DNA of 64,000 nucleotides from Verrucomicrobium sp. (lineage in GTDB: Bacteria > Verrucomicrobiota > Verrucomicrobiia > Methylacidiphilales > GAS474), in assembly GCA_028283855.1 (NCBI GenBank), contig JAPWJX010000005.1:1-64000 (forward strand). Direction: 5' to 3'. Each line of letters opens with the position of its first letter. The stretch's first letter is position 1. The notes below the pieces were generated by a model that saw only the letters and a list, made by a program, of their open reading frames with translations, searched no databases and was not told the origin of the DNA. Positions 6,323 through 25,243 of the stretch are shown here, in pieces. The translations under genes were made by a program, and so were the position numbers.

Positions 6323-6669
6323 CGCACGCCTCCGCGACGGGTCGCTGCCGGCGCCGATGCCGGGCCGGAAGTCGGAATCGGTGCGTCTTCGGCTTTCGCC
6401 GCGCCCGGATCGAGCGTGAGGTATTGCGTGCGGCCGGTGGTGACCGATTGCATCTTCAGGGAATCAGTGGCGATCTGCTCGATGCGCGACGTTTTCGACA
6501 ACGCGCTCTGCTGATATTGAAGTTGCGAATAGTCCTGCTGCAACTGGCGCTCCTGCGATTGGGCGCGCTGCAACTGGATAAAGATCTGACGCTGCTGATT
6601 GGTGGCGTTGACGACCGACAAGGCGCAGCCCATCACGATAATCAGCAGGAAGATATTGAGGCGGTTCAT
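6319..6669 (-). CDS. ftsL: Cell division protein FtsL
   Basis: This is a small bitopic divisome protein that forms a complex with FtsB and FtsQ and recruits FtsW/FtsI. The 116 residues show a short N-terminus, a single membrane helix (about 4-22), a Gln-rich heptad-like coiled-coil region (about 25-65), and the short conserved stretch around [13 protein letters not shown] disordered Pro/Ala tail ends the protein. Sequence conservation in this family is low, so position between rsmH and ftsI with 4-nt overlaps on both sides is part of the assignment. Confidence 0.93.
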
Positions 6670-7619
6670 GGTGCGATCCGCTCCGCCACGCGCATCACGG
6701 CAGAACGGGCGCGCGGGTTGGCGGCGACTTCAGCGTCGCTCGCGAACACACGGCCGATGATTTTGAGCGGAGGGCTCGGCAGGTCGACGGCGCGAATCGG
6801 CAGGCGGCGATCCACCGTAGGCGTACTTGCGTGCGCCTGCATGAATCGCTTGACGATCCGGTCCTCGAGCGAATGAAAGCTGATGACCACCAGCCGCCCC
6901 CCTTGCTCCAACAGCGACAACGCTGCTTCTAAAACGACTTGCAGCTCCGCAAGCTCTTGATTGATGTGAATCCGTATAGCTTGAAAGGTGCGGGTTGCCG
7001 GATCCTTGCCCTTCTCACGGGTTTTGACGACGTTAGCCACGATTTGGGCAAGCTCGCCCGTGCTGACGAGAGGCCCAAGACGGTCGGACTCTGCCCGGCG
7101 AGCAACAAGCGCCTTTGCAATCTGAAAAGCAAACCGTTCTTCCCCATAATCTCGTATCACCTCCGTCAATTCCTGCACCGTGGCCCGCGCCAGCCAGTCA
7201 GCCGCGGACTCGCCGCGCGTGGGATCCATCCGCATGTCGAGCGGGCCGTCGGCGCGAAAACTGAAACCCCGCTCCGGGTCGTCGACTTGCGGCGACGACA
7301 CGCCCAGATCCAGCAACACGCCCGACACCCGCCCTACGCCGCGCTCCGCAACCGCGGTGCGCAGTGAAGCAAAACTCTCGTGCACGATGCCAAAGCGCGG
7401 ATCCGCGATCTGCTGCGCCGTGGCGATGGCGAGCGGGTCTTTGTCGAACGCGATGAGCCGCCCCGACTCGCCCAGCTTCTCCAGCACCAGCCGGCTATGA
7501 CCGCCGCGCCCGAACGTGCCGTCCACATACACGCCGTCCGCGCGCGTGACCAGCGCGCCAACCGCTTCTTCCAGCAGCACCGTGCGATGCTGCAATTCGT
7601 TTCCCATCGCAGGTGCCAT
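6666..7619 (-). CDS. rsmH: 16S rRNA (cytosine(1402)-N(4))-methyltransferase RsmH (MraW)
   Basis: RsmH methylates N4 of C1402 in 16S rRNA using S-adenosylmethionine. The sequence begins with the family signature [10 protein letters not shown], has the SAM loop [11 protein letters not shown] and the [10 protein letters not shown](V/L)D segment, and later the FQAIRIHIN and [10 protein letters not shown] motifs. Its 317 residues are normal for the family. Two in-frame ATGs are possible (7619 and 7607). The longer form is given, but the second, which begins MGNELQHR, is equally plausible. The gene overlaps ftsL by 4 nt and follows mraZ by 15 nt. Confidence 0.95.
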
Positions 7620-7634
7620 ATATGTGAGCCGCGA

Positions 7635-8063
7635 TCAGAACGTGAAATTCTTCAACGCTTCGGGCATGCCCTCGGCGATCGCCGCCTGTTCCTTCTCGGC
7701 GTAGGTTTGTGCATTCCATAATTCGAAGTGCCGGCCCATGCCGAGCAGCGTCACTTCTTTTTCCAGCGCGCCGGCCGTGCGCAATTCCGGCGACACGAGC
7801 ACGCGCCCTGCGCCGTCCATATCGACGTCCATTGCATTGCCGAGAAAAATGCGCTTCCACCAGGTCGCGTTCATGGGCAGCTTGTCGACCTTGTCGCGAA
7901 AGATTTCCCACTCCGGGCGCGGAAAGAGCAACAGGCAGCCGTCCGGGTGCTTGGTGATCGTCACCCGGCCCTCTGCCTGTGTTTGCAGCGCATCCCGATA
8001 CCGAGAGGGAATAGACATCCGCCCTTTCGCATCGAGCGTCAGCGCCGACGCCCCTTGGAACAC
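7635..8063 (-). CDS. mraZ: Transcriptional regulator MraZ
   Basis: MraZ is an AbrB/SpoVT-fold DNA-binding protein that represses its own dcw operon by binding short repeats near the promoter. The 142-residue sequence has two tandem half-domains. The first starts with [14 protein letters not shown] (about 10-23), the second with [18 protein letters not shown] (about 78-95). Both carry the conserved D-x-x-GR pattern. The start is a GTG at 8061-8063, because no ATG gives the conserved N-terminus [11 protein letters not shown]. It heads the dcw operon, and candidate operator boxes lie 130-165 nt upstream. Confidence 0.95.
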
Positions 8064-8079
8064 TTCGCTCTCCCCTGTC

Positions 8080-8150
8080 GACCGGAGTTGGCGCTTTTGC
8101 GCTTTACTCCGGTCCCATGCAACCTGGTTGCTCGCGGCGCTTTTGCGCCG
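8080..8150 (-). other. mraZ leader: three consecutive inverted repeats
   Basis: The predicted 5' leader of mraZ (about 157 nt) contains three near-adjacent inverted repeats. The first is an outer 9-bp stem (8080-8088 with 8106-8114) enclosing an inner GCGC/GCGC pair with a four-base loop. The second is a perfect 13-nt repeat at 8119-8131. The third is a 6-bp stem at 8135-8140/8145-8150 around the same four-base loop. The first and third share a 12-nt core, GCGCAAAAGCGC on the transcribed strand. The arrangement is seen directly; any RNA or protein-binding role is inferred. Confidence 0.6.
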
Positions 8151-8192
8151 GCTGTCCGATTCGTGAAAATCTACCCGAAACTGCCTGTGAGA

Positions 8193-8227
8193 TCACACAA
8201 AAATACACTTTCTCACACTGTCTCCCA
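8193..8227 (-). promoter_or_regulatory. Candidate MraZ operator: four 5-nt boxes at 10-bp spacing
   Basis: On the minus strand, four boxes read TGGGA (8223-8227), TGTGA (8213-8217), TGTAT (8203-8207) and TGTGA (8193-8197), exactly 10 bp apart. Published MraZ operators in E. coli and other bacteria are TGGGN repeats separated by 5 nt, so the first box is a full match and the others are degenerate. The boxes begin at the promoter -10 element and run past the predicted start of transcription, a position suited to autorepression. Confidence 0.65.
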
Positions 8228-8255
8228 CTTTAGAGGAACGCTAAACAGGGGTCAA
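8227..8255 (-). promoter_or_regulatory. Predicted sigma70-type promoter of the dcw operon
   Basis: On the minus strand a -35 element TTGACC (8250-8255) and a -10 element TAAAGT (8227-8232) are separated by 17 bp. Transcription should start near 8220, giving mraZ a leader of about 157 nt. Candidate MraZ boxes overlap and follow the -10 element. The rest of the 464-nt gap to coq7 (about 8256-8527) holds no gene or other convincing signal. Confidence 0.6.
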
Positions 8256-8527
8256 GGGAGAACCACGCTTTTCGGCGAATTTTGTTTGTTAGAACAAGGA
8301 CTTAGCGCGACTCCTTCACGTCAGCATAAAACGGAAAACCGTTATAAATGAATGAGCTAGTGCAGCTTGTGAAGGTGATACGTGAAAAGTGCGGGGGAAA
8401 GGCGTGGAATGAAAGAGATCGTTAAGCGGGATCGGCGGGTGTGGGATGGCGTTTCCGGGTACTTCAGGCGGACGGCGCGCGAGGCGCCGCCCCACTTCCG
8501 AGAGGTGCGTGAACGGCTGTCTCGAAC

Positions 8528-9166
8528 TTATATGTAATAGGCGGTGCGCGTCATCACCTTCGACACCGCGCGCATGAGCGCACGCGCGGGGAACGGCAAT
8601 TCGACGCCGCCGGCATCCATCGCCGCCTTGCCGTGACCGGCTTCGTCGACCCGCATCTGCTCGACAATGGCGCGCGACTCGTGGTCGGCGGCCGGCAACT
8701 CGTCGAGATGCTGATCCAGATGCTGCTCGACCTGACGTTCGGTCTCGGCCATGAAGCCGAGACTCACCCGATCGCCAAGACGGCCTGCGGCGAAACCGAT
8801 AGCCAATGCGCCGGTGTACCAGAGCGGGTTCAGCAGGCTCGGACGCGAGTCGAGTGCTTCGAGACGTTTCGGAAGTCCACGCGAGATGATCTTCTTCCTC
8901 GATTGCCGCGCGATTGAACACGGCTCGCAACGACGGCGACCTGGTCGCGAGTTTCTGAGCCTGGTAGAGCGCCTGGGCGCAGACCTCGCCGACGTGGTTC
9001 ACGCGCATCAAACCAGCCGCGTGCGCGCGCTCGGCCGGGTGACAATTCCGGCGCTTGAGTCAGCCGCCGATTCTTGCGGAACCGGCAACGGACGACTCAT
9101 CCGCGACACGCCGGTCATTGAGCGTAAACCCCGATCAAACTCGCTAATCAACTCGTCCAGAAACAT
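8528..9166 (-). pseudogene. coq7: 2-nonaprenyl-3-methyl-6-methoxy-1,4-benzoquinol hydroxylase (Coq7), split by two frameshifts
   Basis: Coq7 is a di-iron monooxygenase of ubiquinone synthesis. A full-length gene of 213 codons is recognisable from ATG 9164-9166 to the stop at 8528, but in two frames. Codons to about 9037 read in frame 1, beginning [14 protein letters not shown]. The part from about 9036 to 8870, with [16 protein letters not shown] and EEEDH, is in another frame. The rest, with [11 protein letters not shown] and RVDEAGHG, returns to frame 1. The breaks map to a short C run (GGG at 9037-9039 on the plus strand, one base missing) and an A run (TTT at 8867-8869, one base extra). 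As written, frame 1 stops within the gene. All iron-ligand motifs survive across the frames, so sequencing error is more likely than true decay. Confidence 0.85.
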
Positions 9167-9468
9167 TCAGCACTCCCTCATTCGACAACCGCCCCGCCGC
9201 GTTGACAGGTCCCCGCGACAAGGCTTTGCGGGGTAAACCCGGCTACGCGGAAACCTTGAATCCGAAACGGCCAGACGGCCAATTTTGATTTTAGACCATG
9301 TTGCGTAAACGTAACAGGAGCCTTCCTGGGAGCTCTCCTTTTGCTTTGTGCCATGTATGCCTTTTGTTACATTACGTGCAACTTCTCGCGAAGTTGGACA
9401 AGCAAGGCCTCAACGCTACACAAATATTCGCCTTGTACAAAAGATTCGTAATCCTTGGAGATCATTCG
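9167..9468. promoter_or_regulatory. Divergent intergenic region between coq7 and the porin gene
   Basis: This 302-nt AT-richer spacer holds no ORF worth calling. Visible elements are an imperfect palindrome GTTGCGTAAACGTAAC (9300-9315), a perfect stem AACTTC-TCGC-GAAGTT (9380-9395), and a weak plus-strand promoter candidate TTGGAC (9394-9399), 17 bp, TACACA (9417-9422). A GGAG ribosome site lies just before the porin ATG at 9469. Porin genes are often under complex control, so the palindromes may be operators, but this is inference. Confidence 0.4.
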
Positions 9469-10638
9469 ATGAAAAAGTCGCTTCTCGCTCTCGCAGCACT
9501 GGGCGCATTCGCAGGCGTCGCACATGCACAGAGCAGCGTGACCCTGTACGGTATCATTGACGAAGGCTTCAACATCAACACCAATGCAGGTGGCAAGCAC
9601 CTGTACAACCTGTCCAGCGGTGTTCTGCAAGGCTCGCGTTGGGGCCTGCGTGGCACGGAAGATCTGGGCGGCGGTCTGAAGGCAATCTTCGTGTTGGAAA
9701 ACGGCTTTGACGTGAACAACGGCAAGCTGGGTCAAGGCGGCCTGATGTTCGGTCGTCAAGCTTACGTCGGTCTGTCGAGCCAGTTCGGTACGGTCACGCT
9801 GGGTCGTCAGTACGACTCCGTGGTCGACTACGTCGGTCCGCTGGAAGCCGGCGACCAATGGGGCGGCTACATCGCTGCTCACCCGGGCGACCTGGACAAC
9901 TTCAACAACGCGTACCGCACCAACAACACGGTCAAGTACACGAGCGCAAACTACGGCGGCCTGACGTTCGGCGGCACGTACAGCTTCGGCGGCGTCGCTG
10001 GCAACATCACGTCGAACCAGATCTGGTCGTTGGGCGCTGGCTACAACAACGGTCCCCTCGTTCTCGGCGTGGGTTACCTGAACGCACGTACGCCGGCAGC
10101 TTCGGGCGGCCTGTTCAACAACGGCGGTACGGCTGCAGCAGCAAACGCAGCAGTCACGTCGCCGGTCTACGCTGGCTTCGCTTCGGCTAACACGTATCAA
10201 GTGATCGGCGCAGGCGGTGCTTACACGTTCGGCGCGGCAACGGTCGGCGTGACGTACTCGAACGTTCGCTTCGGCAACCTGGGCTCGTCGTACGCTTCGC
10301 CGTTCCGCGGTCAGTCGGCTACGTTCAACAACGGCGAAGTCAACTTCAAGTATCAGTTGACCCCGGCATTGCTGGTCGGCGCAGCGTATGACTACACGCG
10401 CGGTGCTGAAATCAACGGCGGCTCGCGTGCTCAGTACCACCAAGGCGCAGTTGGCGTGGACTACTTCCTGTCGAAGCGTACCGACGTGTACGTGACGGGT
10501 GTCTACCAGCACGCTCTGGGCGATACGGTCAATGCAGCAGGCGCAACGGTCGACGCAACGGCTGGCATCAACGGTCTGACGGGTTCGTCGAACCAGAACC
10601 AGTTCACGGCTCGCGTCGGTATTCGCCACAAGTTCTAA
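9469..10638 (+). CDS. Gram-negative porin, Burkholderia OmpC-like type
   Basis: This is an outer-membrane trimeric beta-barrel channel for small hydrophilic solutes. The chosen ATG follows a GGAG site and gives a 389-residue precursor with a clear signal peptide (MKKSLLALAALGAFAG, cleavage after AHA near residue 20). The mature protein starts QSSVTLYG and contains alternating strand patterns, the motif SRWGLRGTEDLGGGLKA, and a terminal Phe (RHKF), the usual signal for barrel assembly. An upstream in-frame start at 9298 would destroy the signal peptide and is rejected. Codon use is strongly biased, as in highly expressed genes. Confidence 0.96.
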   Translation: MKKSLLALAALGAFAGVAHAQSSVTLYGIIDEGFNINTNAGGKHLYNLSSGVLQGSRWGLRGTEDLGGGLKAIFVLENGFDVNNGKLGQGGLMFGRQAYVGLSSQFGTVTLGRQYDSVVDYVGPLEAGDQWGGYIAAHPGDLDNFNNAYRTNNTVKYTSANYGGLTFGGTYSFGGVAGNITSNQIWSLGAGYNNGPLVLGVGYLNARTPAASGGLFNNGGTAAAANAAVTSPVYAGFASANTYQVIGAGGAYTFGAATVGVTYSNVRFGNLGSSYASPFRGQSATFNNGEVNFKYQLTPALLVGAAYDYTRGAEINGGSRAQYHQGAVGVDYFLSKRTDVYVTGVYQHALGDTVNAAGATVDATAGINGLTGSSNQNQFTARVGIRHKF

Positions 10639-10664
10639 TAAGTCGTAAAAAAGCAGTTTTCCTC

Positions 10665-10690
10665 AAAGGCGCCTTCGGGCGCCTTTTTTT
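10665..10690 (+). terminator. Rho-independent terminator after the porin gene
   Basis: A GC-rich stem AAAGGCGCC with a TTCG-type loop and its complement is followed by seven T residues, 27 nt after the porin stop codon. It is a textbook intrinsic terminator for the plus strand. Confidence 0.9.
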
Positions 10691-10751
10691 GATGGTTTTG
10701 CGCCGGCATGCAGCGTGGTGCTGGTTTGCGCCGAAGTGCGAGAATGCAAAA

Positions 10752-10780
10752 GGCCCGGCAGACTGAGCCTGGTCTGGGCT
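10752..10780 (-). terminator. Possible terminator after fadD
   Basis: An imperfect hairpin (GCCC..CAGAC pairing with GTCTGGGC) lies about 50 nt beyond the fadD stop. On the minus strand it is followed by a short CTTTT stretch. The stem contains a bulge and the T run is short, so this is a weak call. Nothing else is seen between the porin terminator and fadD. Confidence 0.35.
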
Positions 10781-10827
10781 TTCGTTCCGCGCCTTTTGTC
10801 GGCGTCTCTAAACCGTGAGATGCCTGT

Positions 10828-12501
10828 CTAGGCGCGGCCGTCGCGTAGTTCGCGACGCAGAATCTTGCCGACGTTGCTCTTCGGCAGTTCAGTGCGGAAC
10901 TCGATCGTCTTCGGGCGCTTGTAACCGGTCAACTGCAGCTTGCAATAGGCGAACACGTCGGCGTCCGTCAGCGCCGGGTCTTTCTTCACGACGAAGAGCT
11001 TCACCGCTTCGCCGGAATTCTGGTCGGGCACGCCGACCGCGGCCACTTCGAACACGCCCGGCAATTTCGCCACCACGTCTTCGATCTCGTTGGGGTAGAC
11101 GTTGAAGCCCGACACCAGAATCATGTCCTTCTTGCGATCGACGATCTTGACGTAACCGCGCTCGTTCATCACGCCGACATCGCCCGATTTGAAGAAGCCG
11201 TCGGGCGTCATGACCTTGGCCGTTTCATCCGGACGATTCCAGTAGCCCGCCATCACCTGCGGACCACGGATGCAAATTTCACCCGGTTGACCGAGCGGGA
11301 CTTCGACGCCTTCGTCGTCACGGATCGACACCTCGGTGGACGGCATCGGCAAGCCGATCGTGCCGCTATATTCGGTGACGGTGGCCGGATTGCAGGTCAC
11401 ACAAGGCGAGGTCTCCGACAGACCGTAGCCCTCGATAATCGGCGTACGCGTAAGTTCGAACCAGCGTCTGGCGACGGCTTCCTGAACGGCCATACCGCCG
11501 CCGTTTGCCGCGATCAGCTTGGAAAAGTCGAGCTTGTGAAAGTCCGGGCTGTTCAACAGTGCGTTATAGAGCGTGTTGACGGCCGGGAAAGTCGTGATCG
11601 GATAGCCCTCCAACGCCTTGATGGTGCCGGGTATGTCGCGCGGATTCGGAATCAGCAAGCCCAGACCGCCGGTGCGGATCGTCAGCAGCCCGCAAACGGT
11701 GAGCGCAAAGATGTGATAAAGCGGCAGCGCGACGACCGTGATGAACTGGCCGATATCCGGACGATTCGCGCGCACCGGGTCGAGCCAGACCTCGGACTGC
11801 AGCACGTTGGCGATCAGGTTCCGGTGCAGCAGCGTCGCGCCTTTGGCGACACCCGTCGTACCGCCGGTGTACTGGAGAAAAGCGATGTCGTCCGGACCCT
11901 GCTGAACCGGCTTGAAACTCTGCCGGCCACCTTCGGCAATCGCGGTATTGAACTTGACGTGACCCGGCAAGCTCCACTCGGGCACCATCTTTTTCACGCG
12001 GCGCACGACGAAATTCACCAGCGTGCCTTTCAGCCCCATCAGATCGCCCATTGCCGCGACGACGACATGCTTGATGGCCGTATTGCGCACGATCGCCTGC
12101 AAGGTGACGGCGAAGTTTTCCAGCAGAACGATTGCTTCGGCGCCACTGTCCTTGAGCTGATGTTCCAGTTCGCGCGGCGTGTAAAGCGGATTGACGTTCA
12201 CCACCACATAACCCGCTCGAAGGATCGCCGCGATAGCCACGGGATACTGCAGCACGTTCGGCATCATGATCGCGATGCGGGCGCCGCGGGCGAGCCCCTT
12301 TGTCTGGAACCACGCAGCGAGTTTGAGTGAAAGCGCATCGAGTTCGCCGTAACTGATCTCTGCGCCCATACAGGTGAACGCCGGTTTCGCGCGATGCTCG
12401 CGAAAGGCCTCTTCGAGCAGTTGACCGACCGACGTATAACGGCTCGTATCGATTTCTGCGGGAACGCCGGGCGGATAAGATTTCAGCCAGATTTTGTCCA
12501 T
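10828..12501 (-). CDS. fadD: Long-chain-fatty-acid--CoA ligase
   Basis: This cytoplasmic, membrane-associated enzyme activates fatty acids to acyl-CoA through an acyl-adenylate, feeding beta-oxidation. The 557-residue protein shows the ANL superfamily motifs in order: the P-loop-like YTGGTTGVAKGA, the LPLYHIFALT region, the A5 motif EGYGLSETSP, the SGDVG aspartate motif, and the C-terminal domain with the catalytic lysine in the KSNVGKILRREL segment. Length and motifs match FadD of Burkholderia. A strong AAGGAGGAG ribosome site precedes the ATG. It is a single gene, not overlapping its neighbours. Confidence 0.95.
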   Translation of the reverse strand: MDKIWLKSYPPGVPAEIDTSRYTSVGQLLEEAFREHRAKPAFTCMGAEISYGELDALSLKLAAWFQTKGLARGARIAIMMPNVLQYPVAIAAILRAGYVVVNVNPLYTPRELEHQLKDSGAEAIVLLENFAVTLQAIVRNTAIKHVVVAAMGDLMGLKGTLVNFVVRRVKKMVPEWSLPGHVKFNTAIAEGGRQSFKPVQQGPDDIAFLQYTGGTTGVAKGATLLHRNLIANVLQSEVWLDPVRANRPDIGQFITVVALPLYHIFALTVCGLLTIRTGGLGLLIPNPRDIPGTIKALEGYPITTFPAVNTLYNALLNSPDFHKLDFSKLIAANGGGMAVQEAVARRWFELTRTPIIEGYGLSETSPCVTCNPATVTEYSGTIGLPMPSTEVSIRDDEGVEVPLGQPGEICIRGPQVMAGYWNRPDETAKVMTPDGFFKSGDVGVMNERGYVKIVDRKKDMILVSGFNVYPNEIEDVVAKLPGVFEVAAVGVPDQNSGEAVKLFVVKKDPALTDADVFAYCKLQLTGYKRPKTIEFRTELPKSNVGKILRRELRDGRA

Positions 12502-12590
12502 GCAGCGTCTCCTCCTTTATTTTCGAATGGTCGTGCTAAAAACGCATCGTAGCATGGGCACCTCGGTGCAATTCGCGAAAAAGGGTGCGG

Positions 12591-14726
12591 TTAGACGGCG
12601 GCCTCCAACCCGCGGTGAGCGGCTTTCGTGCTGCTTTCGCGCGGCGCTCGGGCGGCCTCGACTTCGACGAGGCAATCGTAAAAAGTGGCCGAGCCGCCGA
12701 GGTCGGTGAGCGCCTGGCTCGTCACCTGATTGGCGTTGCAACCGTCCGGCGCGAGTTTTTTCCACCAGATCGACAAGCCGACCACGAGCCCTTCGCGCGC
12801 TCGATCGGTGACGCGTACGCGAGCCTGCATCGAACCGCGATCGTTGAAGATGCGCACTTGCTCGCCGTCGACGATCTCGCGGTATCGCGCGTCGAGCGGA
12901 TGCATGTCGAGGTGCGGTTCGCCTTCGGTCGAACGGAGACTTTCGACGTTGACGAAAGTACTGTTGAGGAAATTGCGCGCCGGCGGCGAGATCATCGCGA
13001 GTGGGTAGCGAGCGGCAAGTTCGGGCGCGCCGTCGGCTGATTCGTAGGGCGCGAGGTAATCGGGCAGCGGCTCGAGTCCCTGCTGGGCGAGCCGCTCACT
13101 ATAGAACTCGCATTTGCCCGACGGCGTGCGGAAGCCGCCTTCGGCAAACGGTGCGTCAGCTAGTTTGAGTTGTGCCCAACCGGTTTTTTTCAGCGATGCC
13201 CAATCGACTCCGTCGAGCGTCGGGTCTTGCCAGCGAAATGCCGCCTGTGCCACGGCCTCGTCGCTTTCGTACAGCGCAGGCTCGTCAAGCCCCATGTACC
13301 GCGCGATGCCCCGAAAAATTTCCGTGTTGGGGCGCGCTTCGCCCAGTGGCGCGATCGCCGGCTCGTTCAGCATGACGTACGTGTGGCCGTACGACTTGTG
13401 CACGTCGAGGTGCTCGAGTTGCGTCGTGGCCGGCAAAAGCAGATCGGCGTAGTCGGCGGTGTCGGTCTGAAAATGCTCGAGCACGATGGTGAACAGGTCG
13501 TCCCGGGCGAAGCCTTCGGCGACACGCACCGAGTCGGGCGCGACGGCCACCGGGTTCGAGTTGTAGACGATCACGGCTTCGACTTTGGGACCGAACTCGG
13601 TGTCGCCCGGGTGCAGCAGCGCGTCGCCGATCGCATTCATATTGATGACACGAGGTATTTTGGCCGGCCATCCAGGCATCAGGTCGGGACGTTGCAGCGC
13701 GTGGGAATCGACCGGCGCCCATCCGCCCGATGACAGCAACACGCCACCCGCTCGTTCGCGCCACGCTCCGGTCAAAGACGGCAGGCTGGCGATCGCGCGG
13801 ACGGCGTTGCCGCCGCCTCGCACTCGCTGCAGACCGTAGTTCATCCTGATCGCGGCTTTTTTCGTGCTGCCGTAGAGGCGCGCGAGGTCCACGATGGTTT
13901 GCGCTTCGATCCCGCAGATGTCCGCCACACGCGCGGGCGGATAGTCGAGCGCGCGGGCGCTGAGCTCGTCGAAGCCTACCGTATGAGCGGCGATGTACGC
14001 GTGATCCAGCAGGTTTTCGACGATCAGCACGTGCATCAGGCCGAGCGCCAGGGCGCCGTCCGTGCCGGGTCTGAGCGCAATGTGTTGATGACATTTTTCC
14101 GCGGTCAGCGAGCGGTATGGATCGATCGCGATCAGGCGCGCGCCGTTCCGCTTGGCTTCCTGTGCGCGGGTCCAGAAATGCAGATTCGAAGCGATCGGGT
14201 TGGCGCCCCAGATCAGAATGACCTCGCTCTCGGCAAAAAACTCGCTGTGCATGCCGATGTTCGCGCCATAGGTGTACTTCAGGCCAGCGGCGCCGGCGGC
14301 TGCGCAGATGGTCCGATCGAGCTGCGACGCGCCGAGCTTGTGAAAGAAGCGTTGCGCGATGCTGTCGCCTTGCACGAGGCCCATCGTGCCGGCGTAGCTA
14401 TAGGGGACGATGGCTTCCGGTGCGCGAACCGCGATTTCTGCGAGCCGCGTTGCGGCGATGGTCAACGCTTCGTCCCAGCTGATCGGCTCGAAGCGTCCCT
14501 CGCCTTTGGGGCCGACGCGCTTCATCGGCGTGGTCAAGCGGTTCGGATGATAGACGCGCTCGGCGTAACGGCTGACTTTCGTGCATAGCGCGCCTTGCGT
14601 GGGAGGATGATCGGGGTCGCCGAGTACCTTGATGGCACGGCCATTGTCGAGCACGACGCGCATCGCGCACGTGTCCGGGCAATCGTGCGGGCAAACCGCT
14701 CGAGCGAATTCGGAAGGAGCATTCAT
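12591..14726 (-). CDS. Molybdopterin-dependent oxidoreductase with an N-terminal [4Fe-4S] domain
   Basis: This is a cytoplasmic member of the bis-MGD (DMSO reductase) superfamily. The substrate is unknown. From the ATG at 14724-14726 the protein has 711 residues. The N-terminal iron-sulfur site is complete (Cys12, Cys16, Cys20 and Cys48, the CPHDCPDTC pattern plus GALC). Further on come the LIWGANPIASN, VYNSNPVAVAPD and LLLPATTQLEH segments typical of the catalytic subunit, then the C-terminal dinucleotide-binding domain. There is no Tat signal. A TTG six codons upstream (14744) is in frame but lies at the suspected genome boundary, so I prefer the ATG. No partner subunit or cofactor gene is adjacent. 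Confidence 0.9.
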   Translation of the reverse strand: MNAPSEFARAVCPHDCPDTCAMRVVLDNGRAIKVLGDPDHPPTQGALCTKVSRYAERVYHPNRLTTPMKRVGPKGEGRFEPISWDEALTIAATRLAEIAVRAPEAIVPYSYAGTMGLVQGDSIAQRFFHKLGASQLDRTICAAAGAAGLKYTYGANIGMHSEFFAESEVILIWGANPIASNLHFWTRAQEAKRNGARLIAIDPYRSLTAEKCHQHIALRPGTDGALALGLMHVLIVENLLDHAYIAAHTVGFDELSARALDYPPARVADICGIEAQTIVDLARLYGSTKKAAIRMNYGLQRVRGGGNAVRAIASLPSLTGAWRERAGGVLLSSGGWAPVDSHALQRPDLMPGWPAKIPRVINMNAIGDALLHPGDTEFGPKVEAVIVYNSNPVAVAPDSVRVAEGFARDDLFTIVLEHFQTDTADYADLLLPATTQLEHLDVHKSYGHTYVMLNEPAIAPLGEARPNTEIFRGIARYMGLDEPALYESDEAVAQAAFRWQDPTLDGVDWASLKKTGWAQLKLADAPFAEGGFRTPSGKCEFYSERLAQQGLEPLPDYLAPYESADGAPELAARYPLAMISPPARNFLNSTFVNVESLRSTEGEPHLDMHPLDARYREIVDGEQVRIFNDRGSMQARVRVTDRAREGLVVGLSIWWKKLAPDGCNANQVTSQALTDLGGSATFYDCLVEVEAARAPRESSTKAAHRGLEAAV

Positions 14727-14740
14727 CGGCGATGGGTCCG

Positions 14741-14962
14741 TCAAACCGCCTCCGGGTTGATTGGCACCGGCTGGGCGGTCACCTCGGGATCGTTCGGCGC
14801 GGGCTTGGCTTCCTTCTTGGGAGTCTTCTTTTTCAGGAAGCCGCCCAGGAGGGATTTAAGGGAGGAAGGCTTTTTCTCCGCCTTTGCCTCGGAAGAAGTC
14901 TTTTTCTTGGCCTTGGGCTTGTCGTCGCCTTTGCCTGCCCCGGAAGTCGATTTTTTCGCCAT
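14741..14962 (-). CDS. Small Lys/Ala-rich protein of unknown function
   Basis: This 73-residue, strongly basic, low-complexity protein has Lys-Lys-rich N-terminal and central parts (KPKAKKKTS, KKKTPKKEAKP) around a short hydrophobic piece (SLKSLLGGFL), and an acidic/Pro tail. The ATG has a good AGAGGA site. I do not recognise a family; it could bind nucleic acid or be disordered. Codon use (TCC, CTC, CTT) resembles the genes to its right, not the Burkholderia genes to its left. Its stop lies only 14 nt before the molybdopterin gene start, which is where I place the genome boundary. Confidence 0.55.
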   Translation of the reverse strand: MAKKSTSGAGKGDDKPKAKKKTSSEAKAEKKPSSLKSLLGGFLKKKTPKKEAKPAPNDPEVTAQPVPINPEAV

Positions 14963-15125
14963 AGTTCCTCTAAAAAATCAGTTCGTCGCGTTGGACGCCC
15001 CGGACGGTAGCATAACACCTAAGGCCGCAAAGAAGTTTTGGGTCACAGCCGGAATATAACGCATGTCCCGCCTTTTGCTTGATAAAGATTTGCGCCGCCC
15101 GGCCTTGCTGGTACCGTCCCCGCCG

Positions 15126-16217
15126 ATGGTTTCCCGGCTCCTTTTTCTCCTGGCCGCCCTCTCTTTTGCGGCGGTGGGGACCCCCGCGTCCGCGGCCCTG
15201 GTCTGGCGGCCGGGGGAGGGGTGGGTCGACGAGACGACCGGTTCCGGCCTTTCCGCCTCCAGCTCCCGCGACCAGCTGGACATCGCCAAGAAACTGGAAG
15301 CCCAACAGAAGTGGGACGACGCCTTGAAGGCCTACCAAATCGTGGTCCGAAAATGGCCGCTCTCCTTCTTCGCCCCGGAAGCCCAATACAAGATCGGCTG
15401 GTGCCTGGAGCAGAAGGGGAAGTATCTGGACGCCTACAAGGCTTACGACAAGATGGTCGAGAAATACCCCGCCAGCACCTTCTTCGAGCAGGCGCTGGAC
15501 CGGGAATTCGCCATCGGCAACCTCTACCTGGCGGGCGAGCCCCAGCGCATGGCTGGCATCCCCATGGGGCCCTCCATGGAAAAGGCGGCGGAAATCTTCC
15601 AGAGCGTCATCAAGGCCGCCCCCTACGGGAAAAACGCCGCCCAGGCCCAGTTCAAGATCGGCCTGGCCCATGAGAAGGAGAAGAAGTGGACGGAGGCCGT
15701 CAGCGCCTACACCAAGATCCTGGACAAATATCCGGGCAACCCCATCGCCGCCGACGCGCAATACCAGATCGGCTACGCCTGGTTCTGCTCCGCCAGCGCC
15801 GCCGATTACGACCAGAGCGCCGCGCAAAAGGCCGTCGAGGCGTTCGAGGACTTCATCGTCCGCTTCCCGGCCAGCGAAAAGGTCGCCGCGGCCAACACCC
15901 ACATCCAGACGCTCAAGTCCCGCCAGATCCAGGGCAGCTTCAACATCGCCCGCTTCTACGAGAAGCAGAAGAACTACAAGGCTGCCTACATCTATTACAG
16001 CGACGTGGTCCGCCGCAACCCGGACTCCCAGCTGGCCGCCGAATCCCAAAAGAAGATCGCCATCCTGCGCCCCCTCATCGGCCAGAACAGCGACGAGAAG
16101 ACGCCCGAGTCCCAGGTCGACGCCCCCGCCGTGCCGAAGACGCCCGCCGACCGCGGCGTCGAGCCCGCTTCCGCCCCCGTCTCCGGCACATCGGACTCCC
16201 CCCTTCCCACCCCATGA
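15126..16217 (+). CDS. BamD-like tetratricopeptide-repeat envelope protein
   Basis: This resembles BamD/YfiO and related TPR proteins that help insert beta-barrel proteins into the outer membrane. The chosen ATG gives a signal peptide (MVSRLLFLLAALSFAA, cleavage near ASA), but there is no lipobox Cys, unlike classical BamD. Several TPR-like helical pairs follow, such as AKKLEAQQKWDDALKAYQ, YKIGWCLEQKGKYLDAYKAY and ARFYEKQKNYKAAYIYYSD. The last 40 residues are Pro/Ala-rich. An earlier ATG (15063) would bury the signal peptide. It overlaps the LptE-like gene by 4 nt, suggesting an outer-membrane biogenesis operon. At 363 residues it is longer than E. coli BamD, so the exact role is tentative. 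Confidence 0.75.
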   Translation: MVSRLLFLLAALSFAAVGTPASAALVWRPGEGWVDETTGSGLSASSSRDQLDIAKKLEAQQKWDDALKAYQIVVRKWPLSFFAPEAQYKIGWCLEQKGKYLDAYKAYDKMVEKYPASTFFEQALDREFAIGNLYLAGEPQRMAGIPMGPSMEKAAEIFQSVIKAAPYGKNAAQAQFKIGLAHEKEKKWTEAVSAYTKILDKYPGNPIAADAQYQIGYAWFCSASAADYDQSAAQKAVEAFEDFIVRFPASEKVAAANTHIQTLKSRQIQGSFNIARFYEKQKNYKAAYIYYSDVVRRNPDSQLAAESQKKIAILRPLIGQNSDEKTPESQVDAPAVPKTPADRGVEPASAPVSGTSDSPLPTP

Positions 16218-16735
16218 AAAACGCCTCCCTTCGTCTCCTCGCCTTCCTGGTCCTCCTTTCCGTCCTGGGCGGCTGCGCCGGCTACCGGCTGGGCAGCATC
16301 GGCGGAAAGAACATCCAGGGGGTCAACTCGATCTACATTCCGGTAGTCAAGAACCGCACCCTGGAGCCCAGCATCGACGTGGCGACGACCGCCGCCATCA
16401 TCCGCGCCTTCGATCAGGACGGCACCGTGGCCACCTCCCAGAACGAGGCCGCCGACGGCGTGCTGGAAATCATGCTGACCGAAGTGCGCCGCCAGATCCT
16501 GCAGCCGGAGCAGCTCGACGCGCAGGCGGGCAACCAATTCCAGATCGTCCTGGTGGCCCACGTCAGCTTCTTCAACCGCAAAACGGGCCGGAAGGTGATC
16601 CAGGACGCCGCCGTCTCCGGCAGCAACTCCTACTTCGTGGGCCGGGACCAAGTGGAGGCGGAGCGCCAGGCCGTCCCCATGGCGGAGCAGGACCTGGCCA
16701 AGAAGATCGTCTCCCTCGTCGTCGAGGGGTGGTAG
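16214..16735 (+). CDS. lptE: LptE-family outer-membrane lipoprotein
   Basis: LptE is the lipoprotein plug of the LptD barrel that places lipopolysaccharide in the outer leaflet. This 173-residue protein has a lipoprotein signal with the lipobox LGGC, then the family opening GYRLGS and the IYIPVVKNRTLEPSIDV segment typical of the LptE fold. The later part (VLVAHVSFFNRKTGRKV, then AMAEQDLAKKIV-like helix) matches the end of the domain. It is translationally coupled (ATGA) to the BamD-like gene, which supports an envelope role. Remote family members are weakly conserved, so the symbol is given with some reserve. Confidence 0.78.
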   Translation: MKNASLRLLAFLVLLSVLGGCAGYRLGSIGGKNIQGVNSIYIPVVKNRTLEPSIDVATTAAIIRAFDQDGTVATSQNEAADGVLEIMLTEVRRQILQPEQLDAQAGNQFQIVLVAHVSFFNRKTGRKVIQDAAVSGSNSYFVGRDQVEAERQAVPMAEQDLAKKIVSLVVEGW

Positions 16736-16738
16736 ATC

Positions 16739-17728
16739 TTACAGAAGAAGGCCCTGCGGCGTCTGGTGGACGTGGGCGTTCTCCTCTTCCCCGGCGATCT
16801 CCCGGCTGAGCCGGAGCAGCTCCCGGTCCCCGGCGTCGGCCAGGAAATCGGCCACCGCGCGGTGCACGCCGTCCTTTTTTAAGCGCAGGCCATGCCGCTC
16901 CGCCAAAAGATGAGGGCGGTGAACGTAGATGGCGAAAAGGGTTTCCAGGCAGGCGCCGCGGTCCTGATAGAGCCGGTCCAGGGAAGGGGCGCGGCGGACC
17001 GCCTTTTCGATCCCCGCCTCCAGTTCGGCGAAGGCCTTCGCCGTCTTTTCCTCCCGGAAGGCCGGGGGGCGGCCCTCGCCGGGAGCGGCCAGGGCGTCGA
17101 CCAGCCGCGTCAGAAGATTCTGCAAGTGGAACGCCTGGCGGCGGCTGCCGACCAGCTTTGGATAGCGCTGCGCGGCGGGCGCGGCGATTTCCTGCCAGAG
17201 GGCCTGGCCGTCCAGCCACGCCTCCGTTACCAGCCCGGCGTCCAGGCCGCTTTCCAAATCCAGGAGGAGCCGGGCCAGGCGGCGGCCCCAGGAAGCGGCG
17301 CCCGCCTCCGGCAGCCCCTTGCGGCCCTGGAGAATTTCCCGCACGGGATCGGAGAGCTCCAGGCCGTTGAACTCCGGGTGCTTCATTTCCAGCTCCAGCG
17401 CCACGCGGAGGCTCTGCGCGTCGGGGTCGAAGCCGCCGTGGTCCGCCATCAGGCGGTCCAGCGCCTCCGTCCCGGCGCGGCCGAAGGCGGGATGCCCCAG
17501 CGCGTCGGAGAGGACCAGGACCTCCGCCACAGACTCGTTGAGCAGGAGGCGCTCCGCCAGGATGCGGGCGATCGAGGCGGCTTGGAGGGCGTAGAAGAGG
17601 CGGCTGGGGAGCAGCTCGCCCGCCGGGTCGAGGAAGAGCTCGCTCTTTCGGTCCAGCTGGCGGAAGGCGCGGGAGTGGAGGATGCGGTCCCGGTCCTGTT
17701 GGGCGGAGAAGGCCACGGCTTTTTTCAC
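16739..17728 (-). CDS. dGTPase-like HD-superfamily protein with replaced metal ligands (likely inactive)
   Basis: The N-terminal part reads like a bacterial deoxyguanosinetriphosphate triphosphohydrolase: QDRDRILHSRAFRQL (11-25), then RLF..LQAASIARILA, LGHPAFGRAG (77-86) and GGFDPDAQSLR (98-108). The catalytic residues of the family are not there, however. The His of the usual RLTHTLEV motif is Tyr46, the HD pair before LGHP is Asp75-Ala76, and the His in the usual FxHN segment is Pro102. It therefore should not bind the catalytic metal. The 329-residue protein is slightly short for the family and C-terminally divergent. It may be a regulatory or structural paralogue. It is divergent from the M16 peptidase gene. 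Confidence 0.75.
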   Translation of the reverse strand: MKKAVAFSAQQDRDRILHSRAFRQLDRKSELFLDPAGELLPSRLFYALQAASIARILAERLLLNESVAEVLVLSDALGHPAFGRAGTEALDRLMADHGGFDPDAQSLRVALELEMKHPEFNGLELSDPVREILQGRKGLPEAGAASWGRRLARLLLDLESGLDAGLVTEAWLDGQALWQEIAAPAAQRYPKLVGSRRQAFHLQNLLTRLVDALAAPGEGRPPAFREEKTAKAFAELEAGIEKAVRRAPSLDRLYQDRGACLETLFAIYVHRPHLLAERHGLRLKKDGVHRAVADFLADAGDRELLRLSREIAGEEENAHVHQTPQGLLL

Positions 17729-17770
17729 GCGCTCCCCAGCGTGGCGTGGAAGCGCCCCGGGGGCAAGAAT

Positions 17771-17798
17771 TTGACACCGCTTTAGGTTTGGCCATCGT
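17771..17798 (+). promoter_or_regulatory. Candidate promoter immediately before the M16 peptidase gene
   Basis: A consensus -35 box TTGACA (17771-17776) is followed, after 16 bp, by a poor -10 box CATCGT (17793-17798). Transcription would start at or within a base or two of the GTG at 17805, so the message would have almost no leader. The weak -10 makes this tentative. Confidence 0.3.
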
Positions 17799-17804
17799 TC
17801 GGAT

Positions 17805-19052
17805 GTGCATTTCCAAACCGCCGTTTCCGCCGGGGGCTTGCCGGTCGTCGTCTCCGAGATGGGCGGCGTGGAGAGCGTCTGCCTGGGGCTTTGGTTCCCC
17901 GCCGGGAGCCGTTATGAACCCGCCCGCCTTTCCGGCGCGCTCCATTTCATCGAGCACCTCCTCTTCAAGGGGACCCGCCGCCGGAACGCGCGGCAGATCT
18001 CGGAGGCGGTGGAGGGCGTCGGCGGCTATCTCAACGCCTTCACCTCGGAAGAGATGAGCTGCTACCATGCGGCGGTCCCGGCCTCCGGCATGGAGCTGGC
18101 CTTCGACGTGCTGCTCGACATGGTGGACCATTCCCTCTTCTCCCCGGAGGAGGTGGAGCGGGAGCGCGGCGTGATCCTGGAAGAGATCAAGATGTATGAG
18201 GACCAGCCCTCCCAGGTCGTCCAGGACCGGCTCAACGCGCTTCTCTGGCCGGGGCAGGCCCTGGGGCGGCCCATCACCGGCACCCTGGCCTCCGTCTCCC
18301 GCCTGACCCGCGCGGAGCTATTAGCTTGCCACCGCCGCCACTACGATTCTTCCCGGATGGTCGTCACTGTGGCGGGGAAGACGACCGTCCCGGCAGTCCT
18401 CCGCCTGCTGGGCCGCCGGAAGGGGCGGAAGCTTTCCTTCCCCCGCGCCGTCCGTCCCGCCTACCGCCCCGCCGTCGACGCGGTGCAGAAGCCGGTGGAG
18501 CAGACCCACCTGGCCATCGGCTGGCCCGCCGTCTCCCGCCACGATCCGCGCCGTTACGCGCTGAAGCTTCTCTCCGTCCTGCTGGGGGAGAACATGAGCT
18601 CCCGCCTCTTCCAGCTGATCCGGGAGCGGCACGGCCTGGCGTACTCGATTTCCAGCCAGCTGACCCACCACCATGACACGGGTAGCTTCGTCGTCCTGGC
18701 CGGGGTGGAGAACGGCAAGGCCCTGGACGCCCTGCGGATGACGTTGAAGACCGTGGAGGCCGTCGCGCAAAAAGGCCCGGCCACGGCGGAGCTGCGCCGC
18801 GCGCAGGACTACGTCATCGGCCAGACCTACCTGGGCCTGGAGGGGAGCACCAACCAGATGATGTGGGCCGGGGAAGGGATGATGGGAAACGGCTCCGTCC
18901 TCCAACCGCGGGAGGCGGAAAAGCGCCTGCGCGCCGTCACGGCGGAGGCGGTCCGCGCCGTGGCCGCGCAGATTCTCAAGCCCGGCCGCGCCTCCATCGC
19001 CGCCGTCGGCCCGGCCGTCGACGGGGAGGCACTCCGGCCGTTCGTGCGATGA
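17805..19052 (+). CDS. M16-family zinc metallopeptidase (insulinase/processing peptidase type)
   Basis: This 415-residue single-unit M16 peptidase resembles the processing-peptidase and YmxG/PqqL-like group. The inverted zinc motif HxxEH is intact (His47, Glu50, His51 in LHFIEHLLFKGT), with the distal acidic ligand in VILEEIKMYED (Glu126 or 127). The inactive-looking C-terminal half shows the usual R/Y motif region (GLAYSISSQL). The start is a GTG; the ATG two bases upstream is out of frame. No signal peptide is evident, so a cytoplasmic location is likely. The stop overlaps the pabB start (ATGA). Confidence 0.9.
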   Translation: MHFQTAVSAGGLPVVVSEMGGVESVCLGLWFPAGSRYEPARLSGALHFIEHLLFKGTRRRNARQISEAVEGVGGYLNAFTSEEMSCYHAAVPASGMELAFDVLLDMVDHSLFSPEEVERERGVILEEIKMYEDQPSQVVQDRLNALLWPGQALGRPITGTLASVSRLTRAELLACHRRHYDSSRMVVTVAGKTTVPAVLRLLGRRKGRKLSFPRAVRPAYRPAVDAVQKPVEQTHLAIGWPAVSRHDPRRYALKLLSVLLGENMSSRLFQLIRERHGLAYSISSQLTHHHDTGSFVVLAGVENGKALDALRMTLKTVEAVAQKGPATAELRRAQDYVIGQTYLGLEGSTNQMMWAGEGMMGNGSVLQPREAEKRLRAVTAEAVRAVAAQILKPGRASIAAVGPAVDGEALRPFVR

Positions 19053-20218
19053 GTGCCGGCTCCGACTTCGCCTCCCTCAATTCCTGGAGCCATCCGGGCT
19101 GGCTCTACCAGGCGGCGGGAGCGGAGGAAATCGTCGCCGGAGGGCCGGGAGACTGGCCCCTGCTGCGGGAGGCTTTGGCCCGCCGCCATGTGCGGGTCGA
19201 CGCGCCCCACCCGCCTGGCGCGGCCATCGGCTTCTTCCGTTACGACGGGAGCTTCTGGTTCGGCTTCTATCCGGAGATCGCCGTCGTCCCCGCCGGGGAG
19301 CCGTCGCCCCTTTGGCGGGCCCAAGCGGCCCGCTGGGCCGATGCGCCGCCGGGCGGGGAGCCGTGGCAAAGCAACCTGACGCCGGAGGGCTTTGCCGCGC
19401 GCGTTGCCGCCGCGCAGGAGTGGATTGCCCGGGGTCATATCTACCAGGTCAACCTGGCCCAGCGCTTTGAAGTTCCCTTCGCGGGCAGCCCGGCGCGGCT
19501 CTTTGAACATCTCATGGCGCGCAGCCCCGCGCCCGGGGCCGCCTACCTGGACACCGGCGCGGAGCGGATCCTGAGCGCCTCCCCGGAGCTTTTCCTGCGC
19601 GTCGAGGGGCGCCGCGTGGTAACCCGTCCGATCAAGGGCACCCGCCCGCGCGACCGCGATCCGGTGCGCGACCAGCAGCTGGCCTATGAGCTGATGACCG
19701 ACCCGAAGGAGCAGGCCGAGCTGGTGATGATTACCGACCTGGAGCGGAACGACCTGGGCCGGATCTGCGAGGCTGGTTCCGTCACGGTGACGGAGCTGCT
19801 CAAGCTGGAGCGGTATCCGCAGGTCTTTCACTTGGTTTCGACGGTGGAAGGCCACCTGCGGGAGGAGGTCGATCCGGTGGAGGCCGTGGCCGCCTGCTTC
19901 CCCGGCGGCTCCATCACCGGCGCGCCGAAGCGGCGGGCCATGGAGATCATCGCGGAGCTGGAACCGGCCCCGCGCGGGCTTTTCACGGGGGCGATCGGCT
20001 ACTTCGGGTTCAACGGGGACTGCGCCTTTTCCATCGCCATTCGGACGATGGTCCATGAGGCGGGAAAGCTCCACTTCCACGTCGGCAGCGGCGTCACCGC
20101 GGGGTCCGATCCGTTAAGGGAATACGAGGAGACGCTGCACAAGGCCCGGGGCCTGCAATTGGCGCTGGAGGCTTACCGGGCCGCGTCGCGGTCCGTGCCC
20201 AGCGTCAGCGGCTCGTGA
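19049..20218 (+). CDS. pabB: Aminodeoxychorismate synthase component I (PabB)
   Basis: PabB converts chorismate and ammonia (from PabA) to 4-amino-4-deoxychorismate for folate synthesis. The ATG at 19049, coupled to the M16 stop, gives 389 residues. The chorismate-binding core is clear: YQVNLAQRFE, ASPELFLR, PIKGTRPR, ELVMITDLERNDLGR, and FPGGSITGAPKRRAMEII. The lysine in PIKGT distinguishes PabB from anthranilate synthase TrpE, which has Ala there. The N-terminal tryptophan-binding-like domain is shorter than usual. No pabA or pabC is adjacent. The 3' end overlaps the convergent flavodoxin gene by 46 bp. Confidence 0.92.
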   Translation: MSAGSDFASLNSWSHPGWLYQAAGAEEIVAGGPGDWPLLREALARRHVRVDAPHPPGAAIGFFRYDGSFWFGFYPEIAVVPAGEPSPLWRAQAARWADAPPGGEPWQSNLTPEGFAARVAAAQEWIARGHIYQVNLAQRFEVPFAGSPARLFEHLMARSPAPGAAYLDTGAERILSASPELFLRVEGRRVVTRPIKGTRPRDRDPVRDQQLAYELMTDPKEQAELVMITDLERNDLGRICEAGSVTVTELLKLERYPQVFHLVSTVEGHLREEVDPVEAVAACFPGGSITGAPKRRAMEIIAELEPAPRGLFTGAIGYFGFNGDCAFSIAIRTMVHEAGKLHFHVGSGVTAGSDPLREYEETLHKARGLQLALEAYRAASRSVPSVSGS

Positions 20219-20733
20219 GCGGGGCCCGGCTGCCGGGTGATTCCGGCGAAGAGGCCCTTTAGCTCCTCAAAACGGGAGCGGGGAGGCTGGAAGAACGCGG
20301 GGAGGCGGTCCAGCCACTTGGCCAGGCCCTTTTCAAAGTGGCGGTCGCACTCGACGCGGGAACCCATCGGCGTGGCGCCGAGTTCCTGGAGCCTGGCGTC
20401 CAAGTCGCGGCCGAACTGGCAGAATTTCGGGAACCGGGTGTCCCCCAGCGCCAGCACCGCGTAGCGGACGCCTTCCAGGGATCCGGGCTCCATGTCGCGC
20501 AGGGCGCGCCACAGGGGCATCGCTCCGGAGGGCGGCTCTCCGCGGCCCCAGGTGCTGGTGACAAAGAGGACTTCCTTTTCCTGCGGCAGGGAGGCGGGGT
20601 CGTAGGCGCGCATTTCCGCCAGGTGCGGCTCCAGGTCCAGGCCCAGTTCCCGGGCCTTGGCGGCGGTCGCCTCCGCGCACTGGGCGGAATGGCCCGTGTT
20701 GGAAGCGTAGAGGATCGGGACGGCCCGGCTCAC
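20173..20733 (-). CDS. Flavodoxin-domain protein (CysJ/diflavin-reductase type FMN domain)
   Basis: This is a stand-alone FMN-binding electron-transfer protein of about 186 residues. The phosphate loop YASNTGHSAQ, the 50s loop TSTWGRGEPP and the 90s loop LALGDTRFPKFCQFGRDLD correspond to the three FMN contacts of the flavodoxin-like domain in sulfite/cytochrome P450 reductases. No NADPH domain is attached. The GTG at 20731-20733 forms a GTGA overlap with a small upstream ORF and is preferred over a TTG at 20769. The partner is unknown; nothing for sulfur assimilation lies nearby. Confidence 0.85.
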   Translation of the reverse strand: MSRAVPILYASNTGHSAQCAEATAAKARELGLDLEPHLAEMRAYDPASLPQEKEVLFVTSTWGRGEPPSGAMPLWRALRDMEPGSLEGVRYAVLALGDTRFPKFCQFGRDLDARLQELGATPMGSRVECDRHFEKGLAKWLDRLPAFFQPPRSRFEELKGLFAGITRQPGPAHEPLTLGTDRDAAR

Positions 20734-20867
20734 TTTGCCTTTTGCGCGGCCATCTTTTCCGGCACGCAAAGGGGAGCGCGGCGGAATTGGAAGGCGTTGT
20801 CGGGGGACTCTACCCGCTCCGAGGGCTTGGGGAAACGGGGGAGGGGCATTGGACGGGGGGTGCTCAT
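20730..20867 (-). CDS. Small ORF (45 aa) coupled to the flavodoxin gene
   Basis: This reading frame of 46 codons starts at ATG 20865-20867 and ends in a TGA that overlaps the GTG of the flavodoxin gene (GTGA). The predicted product begins MSTPRPMPLPRFPKP and continues with SPDNAFQFRRAPLCVPEKMAAQ, ending in a Lys/Ala tail. It has a single Cys (residue 34) and no membrane segment. I do not recognise a family. The coupling and the natural-looking composition support it as real; the weak ribosome site argues against. Confidence 0.4.
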   Translation of the reverse strand: MSTPRPMPLPRFPKPSERVESPDNAFQFRRAPLCVPEKMAAQKAK

Positions 20868-20937
20868 GAGGAAACGAAGGTTGAGGAATTTGCCGGAAAC
20901 GGCGCGGGGCGGCTTCCTTCGCGTTGCGGCGGGCTTG

Positions 20938-21663
20938 CTAAGGATTGCGGACCTGGTCCCGGAAGGGTTTCGGCGTGGGGGATTGCGCCGGGGCGCGGCG
21001 GAAGTCGCCCGCGATCTCCGGGCGGGGTTCCGATGGCAGGCCGAATAGGCGGCCCATCTCCGCTTCGAAGTTGCGGCTAAAGCGGTCGGCGTCCGGCTCC
21101 AGGGACGCGGTGGTGCGCTCCTCCGGCAGGATACTGCCTAGAAGGGCGCGGGGGGAGGCTTTGGCGCCCCGGGCTTTTTCAAAGGTTTCCAGCAGGGGGG
21201 AGCCGGCCTCCTTCAGGCGCCGGGCGGCGTCCTGCTCGGCGCCGGGGCCGCAGGACAGGGCCTCCATGGTCCGGCGGGCGGTCAGGTATTCCATCTCCCG
21301 CTCCCCGCGGCGGCTGGGGGAGGGAGGATTGGCGGCCATTTCCAGAAAGCGGATCTGCTCCGCCTCCGATCCGCCGTGCCGCTTTAAGGCGGCGGCGAAG
21401 TGGGCGGGCGTCGTGTTGTAGACCTTGCGCAGGTAGGCGGCGCCCTCCAGGCCGGAGGTCATGCGGTCCGCCAGGAGGGTGCCGAGGGCGGCCTCGTAAC
21501 GCTGCGCCGGGATGTCATCCGCCACGCCGCGGAGGAGGGAAAGGGTTTCGACCTGCCGGGCGGCGTCCGCGTAGCGCGCGCGATCGGCGGCCAGCCAGCG
21601 GGGGGCCCAGCCATCGAGCTTTTCTTCGCGGAGGCGGCCCCAGACTTCCAAGGAGGGATTCAT
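20938..21663 (-). CDS. Hypothetical protein
   Basis: This 241-residue, Arg/Ala/Glu-rich, mostly helical protein has no signal peptide, membrane segment or motif I can name. Segments such as YEAALGTLLADRM and AAYLRKVYNTTPAHF suggest amphipathic helices. The C-terminal 60 residues are Pro-rich and probably disordered. It is on the minus strand upstream of the 45-aa ORF and flavodoxin genes and divergent from hprK. The 70-nt gap to the small ORF holds nothing obvious, so the three may form one unit. Codon use matches its neighbours. No function is proposed. Confidence 0.6.
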   Translation of the reverse strand: MNPSLEVWGRLREEKLDGWAPRWLAADRARYADAARQVETLSLLRGVADDIPAQRYEAALGTLLADRMTSGLEGAAYLRKVYNTTPAHFAAALKRHGGSEAEQIRFLEMAANPPSPSRRGEREMEYLTARRTMEALSCGPGAEQDAARRLKEAGSPLLETFEKARGAKASPRALLGSILPEERTTASLEPDADRFSRNFEAEMGRLFGLPSEPRPEIAGDFRRAPAQSPTPKPFRDQVRNP

Positions 21664-21741
21664 GAAGGGGTCGACTGTGCCGGGGAAACGGGGAGGGGGC
21701 TTCCTCCCGCTTGTCGCCGGGGTTGTCCCGGATTGTCGCCA

Positions 21742-21770
21742 TTGCCATTTTGGGCGGCGTTTCCTATAAC
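21742..21770 (+). promoter_or_regulatory. Candidate promoter of the hprK gene
   Basis: A -35 box TTGCCA (21742-21747) and a -10 box TATAAC (21765-21770) are separated by 17 bp. The predicted start of transcription (about 21777) coincides with the first ATG of the HprK-like gene, so the transcript may be leaderless, or translation may begin at a later ATG (21783 or 21816). Confidence 0.5.
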
Positions 21771-21776
21771 CCGGGC

Positions 21777-22757: not shown

Positions 22758-22787
22758 AGTAAGTTTTTACGAGAGAAGGATTTTGAA

Positions 22788-23090
22788 ATGAGCGGCGCGG
22801 CGGCAAAAAAGGGCGAGGAGGCGAAGATGACCAAGGAGGTCGTCATCCTGAACAAACTCGGGATGCACGCCCGGCCCGCGGCCATGTTCGTCCGCGTCGC
22901 CAACCGGTTCCAGGCCGATCTCACCGTCGAAAAAGACGGCGAGGAAGTCAACGGCAAGAGCATCATGGGCCTCATGCTCCTGGCTGCCGGCTGCGGTTCC
23001 CGCCTCAAGCTCACCGCCGTCGGCGGGGACGCGGCGGCGCTCCTCAAGGAAATTGAGGAAATCATTTCTCGGAAGTTCGACGAGGAATAA
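22788..23090 (+). CDS. ptsH: Phosphocarrier protein HPr
   Basis: HPr accepts phosphate from enzyme I on His and is phosphorylated by HprK on Ser. Both sites are visible: the His motif LGMHARPA (His27) and the Ser motif VNGKSIMGLM (Ser58). The first ATG (22788) has an AGAAGGA site 8 nt upstream and adds a short Lys/Glu-rich N-terminus. A second ATG at 22827, also with a GAGGAGG site, gives the classical length, with the His at 14. It lies 30 nt after hprK and 15 nt before ptsI. Confidence 0.94.
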   Translation: MSGAAAKKGEEAKMTKEVVILNKLGMHARPAAMFVRVANRFQADLTVEKDGEEVNGKSIMGLMLLAAGCGSRLKLTAVGGDAAALLKEIEEIISRKFDEE

Positions 23091-23105
23091 CGGGACGCAT
23101 CGCGG

Positions 23106-24917: not shown

Positions 24918-24961
24918 AAAAACCGCTCAGGTTCCCGGGGGAGGGGCCGATAAGAAGAAGT

Positions 24962-25243
24962 ATGAGCGGCGGTCCCGAGAGTTTTTCCTACCACTTTTCC
25001 CGCAATCTGGCCGAGCAGGCCCTCGCCGAAACCAAGCCGGAGCCCCTTCCCGAGGCCGGTTTCGTCACCAACGTTTTTCAGCTGAACCTCCATGAGGCGA
25101 CCGCATCCTCCCTAAAGCGGGCGCCGAAGCGGGCGGCCGGCTACTGGGCCCAAACCCAGAGCGAAGCTTACACCCGCAATCTTCCCGCCGCCGCCCCTGA
25201 AACGCCCACCCCCTCGCAGACCACCTTCAATCGGGCGTTTTAG
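24962..25243 (+). CDS. Small hypothetical protein with FQLNL motif
   Basis: This 93-residue protein of unknown family is rich in Ala, Pro and Thr and probably partly disordered. It has no signal peptide or membrane helix. It contains the string VFQLNLHEA near residues 38-46, and a similar IFQLNLLDS occurs in the next small gene. The ATG is 45 nt after ptsI with a GAAGAAG ribosome site. Possible co-transcription with ptsI is inferred from spacing only. Confidence 0.5.
   Translation: MSGGPESFSYHFSRNLAEQALAETKPEPLPEAGFVTNVFQLNLHEATASSLKRAPKRAAGYWAQTQSEAYTRNLPAAAPETPTPSQTTFNRAF

Follow-up and report, generated by a model that had tools for sequence, protein, structure and literature searches.

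The window analyzed here, 64 kb in length, is the first part of contig C5 (273,148 bp) in an assembly of 2,556,416 bp and nine contigs, estimated to be 95.6% complete and 0.62% contaminated. Its opening 14,748 bases (1..14748) form a foreign block, which therefore sits at the tip of a contig. The block runs from a dcw cluster to a molybdopterin oxidoreductase gene, and Pfam searches recognized the genes for MraY (308..1477, minus strand; PF00953, PF10555), RsmH/MraW (6666..7619, minus strand; PF01795), a Gram-negative porin (9298..10638, plus strand; PF13609), an AMP-binding, FadD-type ligase (10828..12501, minus strand; PF00501/PF13193), and the molybdopterin oxidoreductase (12591..14726, minus strand; PF00384/PF01568/PF04879). 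An earlier note, made from the letters alone, had assigned this side to Burkholderiaceae. Those of its gene labels that were checked hold, and searching this side against genomes led to the chromosome of Paraburkholderia sp. BCC1886 (contig NZ_CAAJGK010000063.1, from 485778 to about 500605). The blastn alignment follows one contig in one orientation, and the gene order is the same over the whole 14.7 kb; the level of identity differs along the way, at 89.8% over the first 8.5 kb (1–8499) versus 97.2% over the last 6.2 kb (8529–14748). The same order is found at lower identity in dozens of further Paraburkholderia genomes, and the 5-mer composition is Paraburkholderia-like all along.

To judge from its differences from BCC1886, the left block is clean DNA from a real Paraburkholderia related to that strain. 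The fadD and molybdopterin oxidoreductase genes are about 99–100% identical to their BCC1886 counterparts (100% at the amino-acid level for the oxidoreductase, as a rounded value for the best segment). They contain zero gaps, and 18 of their 22 mismatches fall at codon position 3, including eight of the ten differences in fadD. In the coding sequences at 2680–8499, gaps of 15, 9, 12, and 6 bases and a cluster of 8 + 1 + 3 all keep the frame. A single-base gap near the porin start at 9335 has an opposite gap just outside, at 9287. Because identity is only 89.8% over the first 8.5 kb, the donor is not BCC1886 itself but another strain or species related to it. Of the four relatives checked, three have a ribosomal RNA operon within about 2 kb further on, and in BCC1886 a 5S gene some 1.6 kb beyond the matched stretch closes the contig. 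The 1634 bases by which BCC1886 continues upstream of that stretch matched no part of the window significantly.

The two genomes meet at a single point (14748..14749). The last 61 bases of the block (14688–14748) are identical to BCC1886, and from 14749 onward the two sequences are unrelated. An order-4 Markov (5-mer) comparison showed a single change of sign, with the best switch at 14744; scores in 1-kb blocks ranged from −0.07 to −0.13 bits per base to the left of it and from +0.05 to +0.16 bits per base to the right, up to 32 kb. The change in codon choice that the earlier note had placed at the small Lys-rich gene was examined indirectly, by way of 5-mer composition. Similarity to other Paraburkholderia species fades at 14726–14739, where intergenic sequences diverge. 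The earlier note was correct that two genomes meet here, but its range of 14,727–14,745 ends a few bases short of the border. It had also set the boundary between the start of the molybdopterin gene (14,726) and the stop of a small neighboring gene (14,741), and that stop lies inside the Paraburkholderia part.

This small neighbor is a Lys-rich ORF of 73 amino acids (14741..14962, minus strand) which the junction cuts. Translation and the BCC1886 alignment show that 14749–14962 is native, while the last codons and the stop (14741–14743) are Paraburkholderia DNA; since its stop falls in foreign sequence, the ORF may be either a cut gene or a chance frame. Hoping to trace the native sequence across the break, we looked for its homologues: the congeners G001 and G002 had none, and the other searched genomes of the order gave only two weak matches (E about 0.06). 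No tRNA or known RNA family was found at the border, and the genes flanking it (the molybdopterin oxidoreductase, the short cut ORF, and a tetratricopeptide protein) include no integrase, as the earlier note had observed. The border is sharp, with neither a mobile-element nor an RNA-gene signature. The hallmarks of a genomic island, such as an integrase, flanking repeats, or a tRNA target, are absent from this edge; the other edge would lie outside the contig.

From 14749 to the end of the window (14749..64000), the DNA is native to the binned, Verrucomicrobiota-like genome. All full 7-kb blocks match the composition of the interior of contig C3, with correlations of 0.75–0.86. From 15183 to at least 24800, the window is collinear with contig C1 of the single-contig congener G001, from about 3207.4 kb downward, at 72–79% DNA identity in aligned blocks. 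The first clearly native gene encodes a BamD/YfiO-like tetratricopeptide protein (15063..16217, plus strand; Pfam PF13525 and TPR models) and is conserved in both congeners, at 73–78% DNA identity in the best-aligned parts. Further right we recognized PtsI, PEP-CTERM proteins, and prepilins resembling those of the Verru_Chthon cassette (D/B/C-like, with matches below the curated cut-offs), much as the earlier note had read them. The PEP-CTERM proteins and cassette-like prepilins fit a verrucomicrobial origin, and a search of plasmids with the right half of the window returned conserved-enzyme matches only. Each side of the junction is thus collinear with a genome of its own, and these two genomes are unrelated.

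The rest of the assembly provides the context for this junction. A native dcw cluster is present on C3, with RsmH at 1027803–1028714 and Mur-ligase-like genes at 1030850–1033652, so that this assembly holds two copies of RsmH, one foreign and one native, and each congener holds one. Several contig ends overlap without having been joined (C4 tail and C1 head by 2.8 kb, C3 head and C4 head by about 2.7 kb, C8 tail and C7 head by 0.85 kb), at 97–99.5% identity with indels, a pattern that suggests overlap assembly of long reads in which the ends had little support. The heads of C3 and C4 were considered as further chimeras and dropped, as the same sequence is present in both contigs; the low-GC region they have in common is probably a native island. 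Within it (C3:1–6000 and C4:1–6000, GC 0.52–0.53), large ORFs appear AIPR-like and Z1-like by eye, making it a candidate defense island.

Two other contigs also end in foreign sequence. C3 turns foreign in composition at about 1408.4 kb, leaving a tail of about 12.1 kb (about 1408395–1420499) whose DNA appears Burkholderiaceae-like. Its Rep3 plasmid initiator is closest, within the plasmid collection, to that of Caballeronia sp. NK8 (55.5% identical), and its D-amino-acid dehydrogenase gene (dadA) is broken over two frames. The tail also carries an Asp/Glu racemase and a PaaA2-type stability determinant. We considered a single donor for the C5 head and the C3 tail and found no support for it: compared with BCC1886 and two other Paraburkholderia genomes, the tail matched only in 187 bases of dadA. 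No second Paraburkholderia piece was found among the contig ends and the few inner stretches of the assembly that were searched. C2 turns foreign at about 8340 and remains so through 14632, giving about 6.3 kb of foreign composition, in which an OprB porin lies in pieces. Plasmid searches with the proteins of this tail returned only distant, mostly proteobacterial matches and gave the donor no name. Two tRNA genes are also located in the C2 tail.

Each of the three foreign tips adjoins a G001 interval of 4–5 kb that is absent from the assembly. The C3 tail and the C5 head flank one interval of about 4 kb, bounded by the BamD-like gene on one side and by residue 250 of a GH57 branching enzyme on the other. 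The C3 copy of this enzyme is 76% identical to that of G001 and begins only at residue 250; for residues 1–249, the assembly offers nothing beyond one weak partial match. Between the two genes, G001 carries an OB-fold gene, a GarR-like dehydrogenase gene, and a DUF4912 gene. A homologue of the GarR-like gene is present at another place on C3. Searches of the assembly for the OB-fold and DUF4912 genes came up empty, which by itself is weak evidence. Another interval, of about 5 kb, is flanked by the tails of C5 and C2. HisC, which is full-length in both congeners, stops matching at residue 71 at the C2 break, and none of the contig ends examined carries its other part. Native sequence expected at the border is thus missing from the assembly, and the same fault recurs on two other contigs.

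Taken as a whole, the sequence evidence makes it almost certain that the contig is chimeric, with a Paraburkholderia piece wrongly joined to a Verrucomicrobiota-like genome, rather than the product of gene transfer. The rest of the assembly supports an artifact through the position of the block at a contig tip, the native dcw cluster on C3, the two further foreign tips, and the missing native genes. The earlier note had preferred a chimeric contig to transfer, and the chimera is indeed much better supported of the two: an intact core block of another genus lies at a contig tip, it duplicates the native dcw cluster, and two more foreign tips cut conserved native genes internally, at arbitrary codons. 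We propose that the true native contig would stop at about 14749, a place that the assembly failed to get past, and that its tip would have been continued instead into 14.7 kb of Paraburkholderia chromosome. The most likely route would be a DNA molecule or read that was itself chimeric and came from a mixed community. The sample was presumably a metagenome, and the join, we infer, arose in library preparation or assembly, with long reads in use. Chimeric molecules, reads, or joins from such a community would explain all of the cut hisC, the mixed replicon types, and the missing native genes. The Paraburkholderia block is not an uncorrected single read, because it is clean and its ORFs are intact, unlike the foreign tails of C3 and C2.

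A variant of this explanation is a misjoin in the assembly graph at a repeat common to both genomes, which would replace the chimeric molecule or read and still yield a chimera. Benchmarks of metagenome assembly found the choice of assembler to be the main influence on how many chimeric contigs arise (PMC11261854), which speaks for such a step; however, shared sequence is not visible here, and immediately past 14748 the native DNA and the Paraburkholderia chromosome already part ways. As no shared sequence can be seen at 14748/14749, we lean toward a chimeric molecule or read and regard a graph misjoin as unlikely. The contig resembles the inter-species chimeras of PMC11261854 in that two unrelated genomes are joined abruptly with no mobile-element signature. 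It differs from them in being unusually well delimited, as comparison with a close relative of the donor places the border to the exact base and the congener reveals which part is lacking.

A rival reading takes the C3 tail and C5 head, on either side of the same interval, as opposite ends of a single genuine insertion. Under such a recent transfer, a large Burkholderiaceae insert of chromosomal and plasmid DNA would lie between the GH57 and BamD-like genes, and it is in favor of this idea that both tips border the same G001 interval and both carry Burkholderiaceae-like DNA. However, the insertion would have added a second dcw set from a distant genus with its composition unchanged, destroyed the GH57 gene at residue 250, and removed neighboring genes. 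The target is not intact on both sides, given that the small ORF is cut at 14749 and that the GH57 gene breaks off at residue 250, its other part missing, and the integrase, tRNA, or known RNA that might mark an insertion is absent from the window's border. The two foreign pieces also derive from different kinds of replicon, a core chromosomal block and a plasmid-type segment, and the C2 tail, with other DNA and hisC cut at residue 71, would need a separate explanation. We therefore consider recent transfer very improbable. Its specific form is scarcely credible: a Verrucomicrobiota-like chromosome would have recently gained, by insertion, at least 27 kb of Burkholderiaceae DNA that carries a plasmid initiator along with part of a second cell-division and murein gene cluster. 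The converse, a Paraburkholderia contig with the right side as an island within it, has physical linkage alone in its favor and is refuted by the right side, whose composition agrees with that of the remaining assembly and which runs collinear with a single-contig congener.

The Paraburkholderia stretch at the head of C5 is thus not a real feature of this genome but an artifact of assembly or library preparation. About 33 kb of foreign sequence is located at the tips of three of the nine contigs, and we advise trimming it; the contamination estimate of 0.62% gives little warning of its presence. Taken at face value, the record would feed false inter-phylum transfers, including a second dcw cluster, a porin, and a plasmid initiator, into comparative studies.
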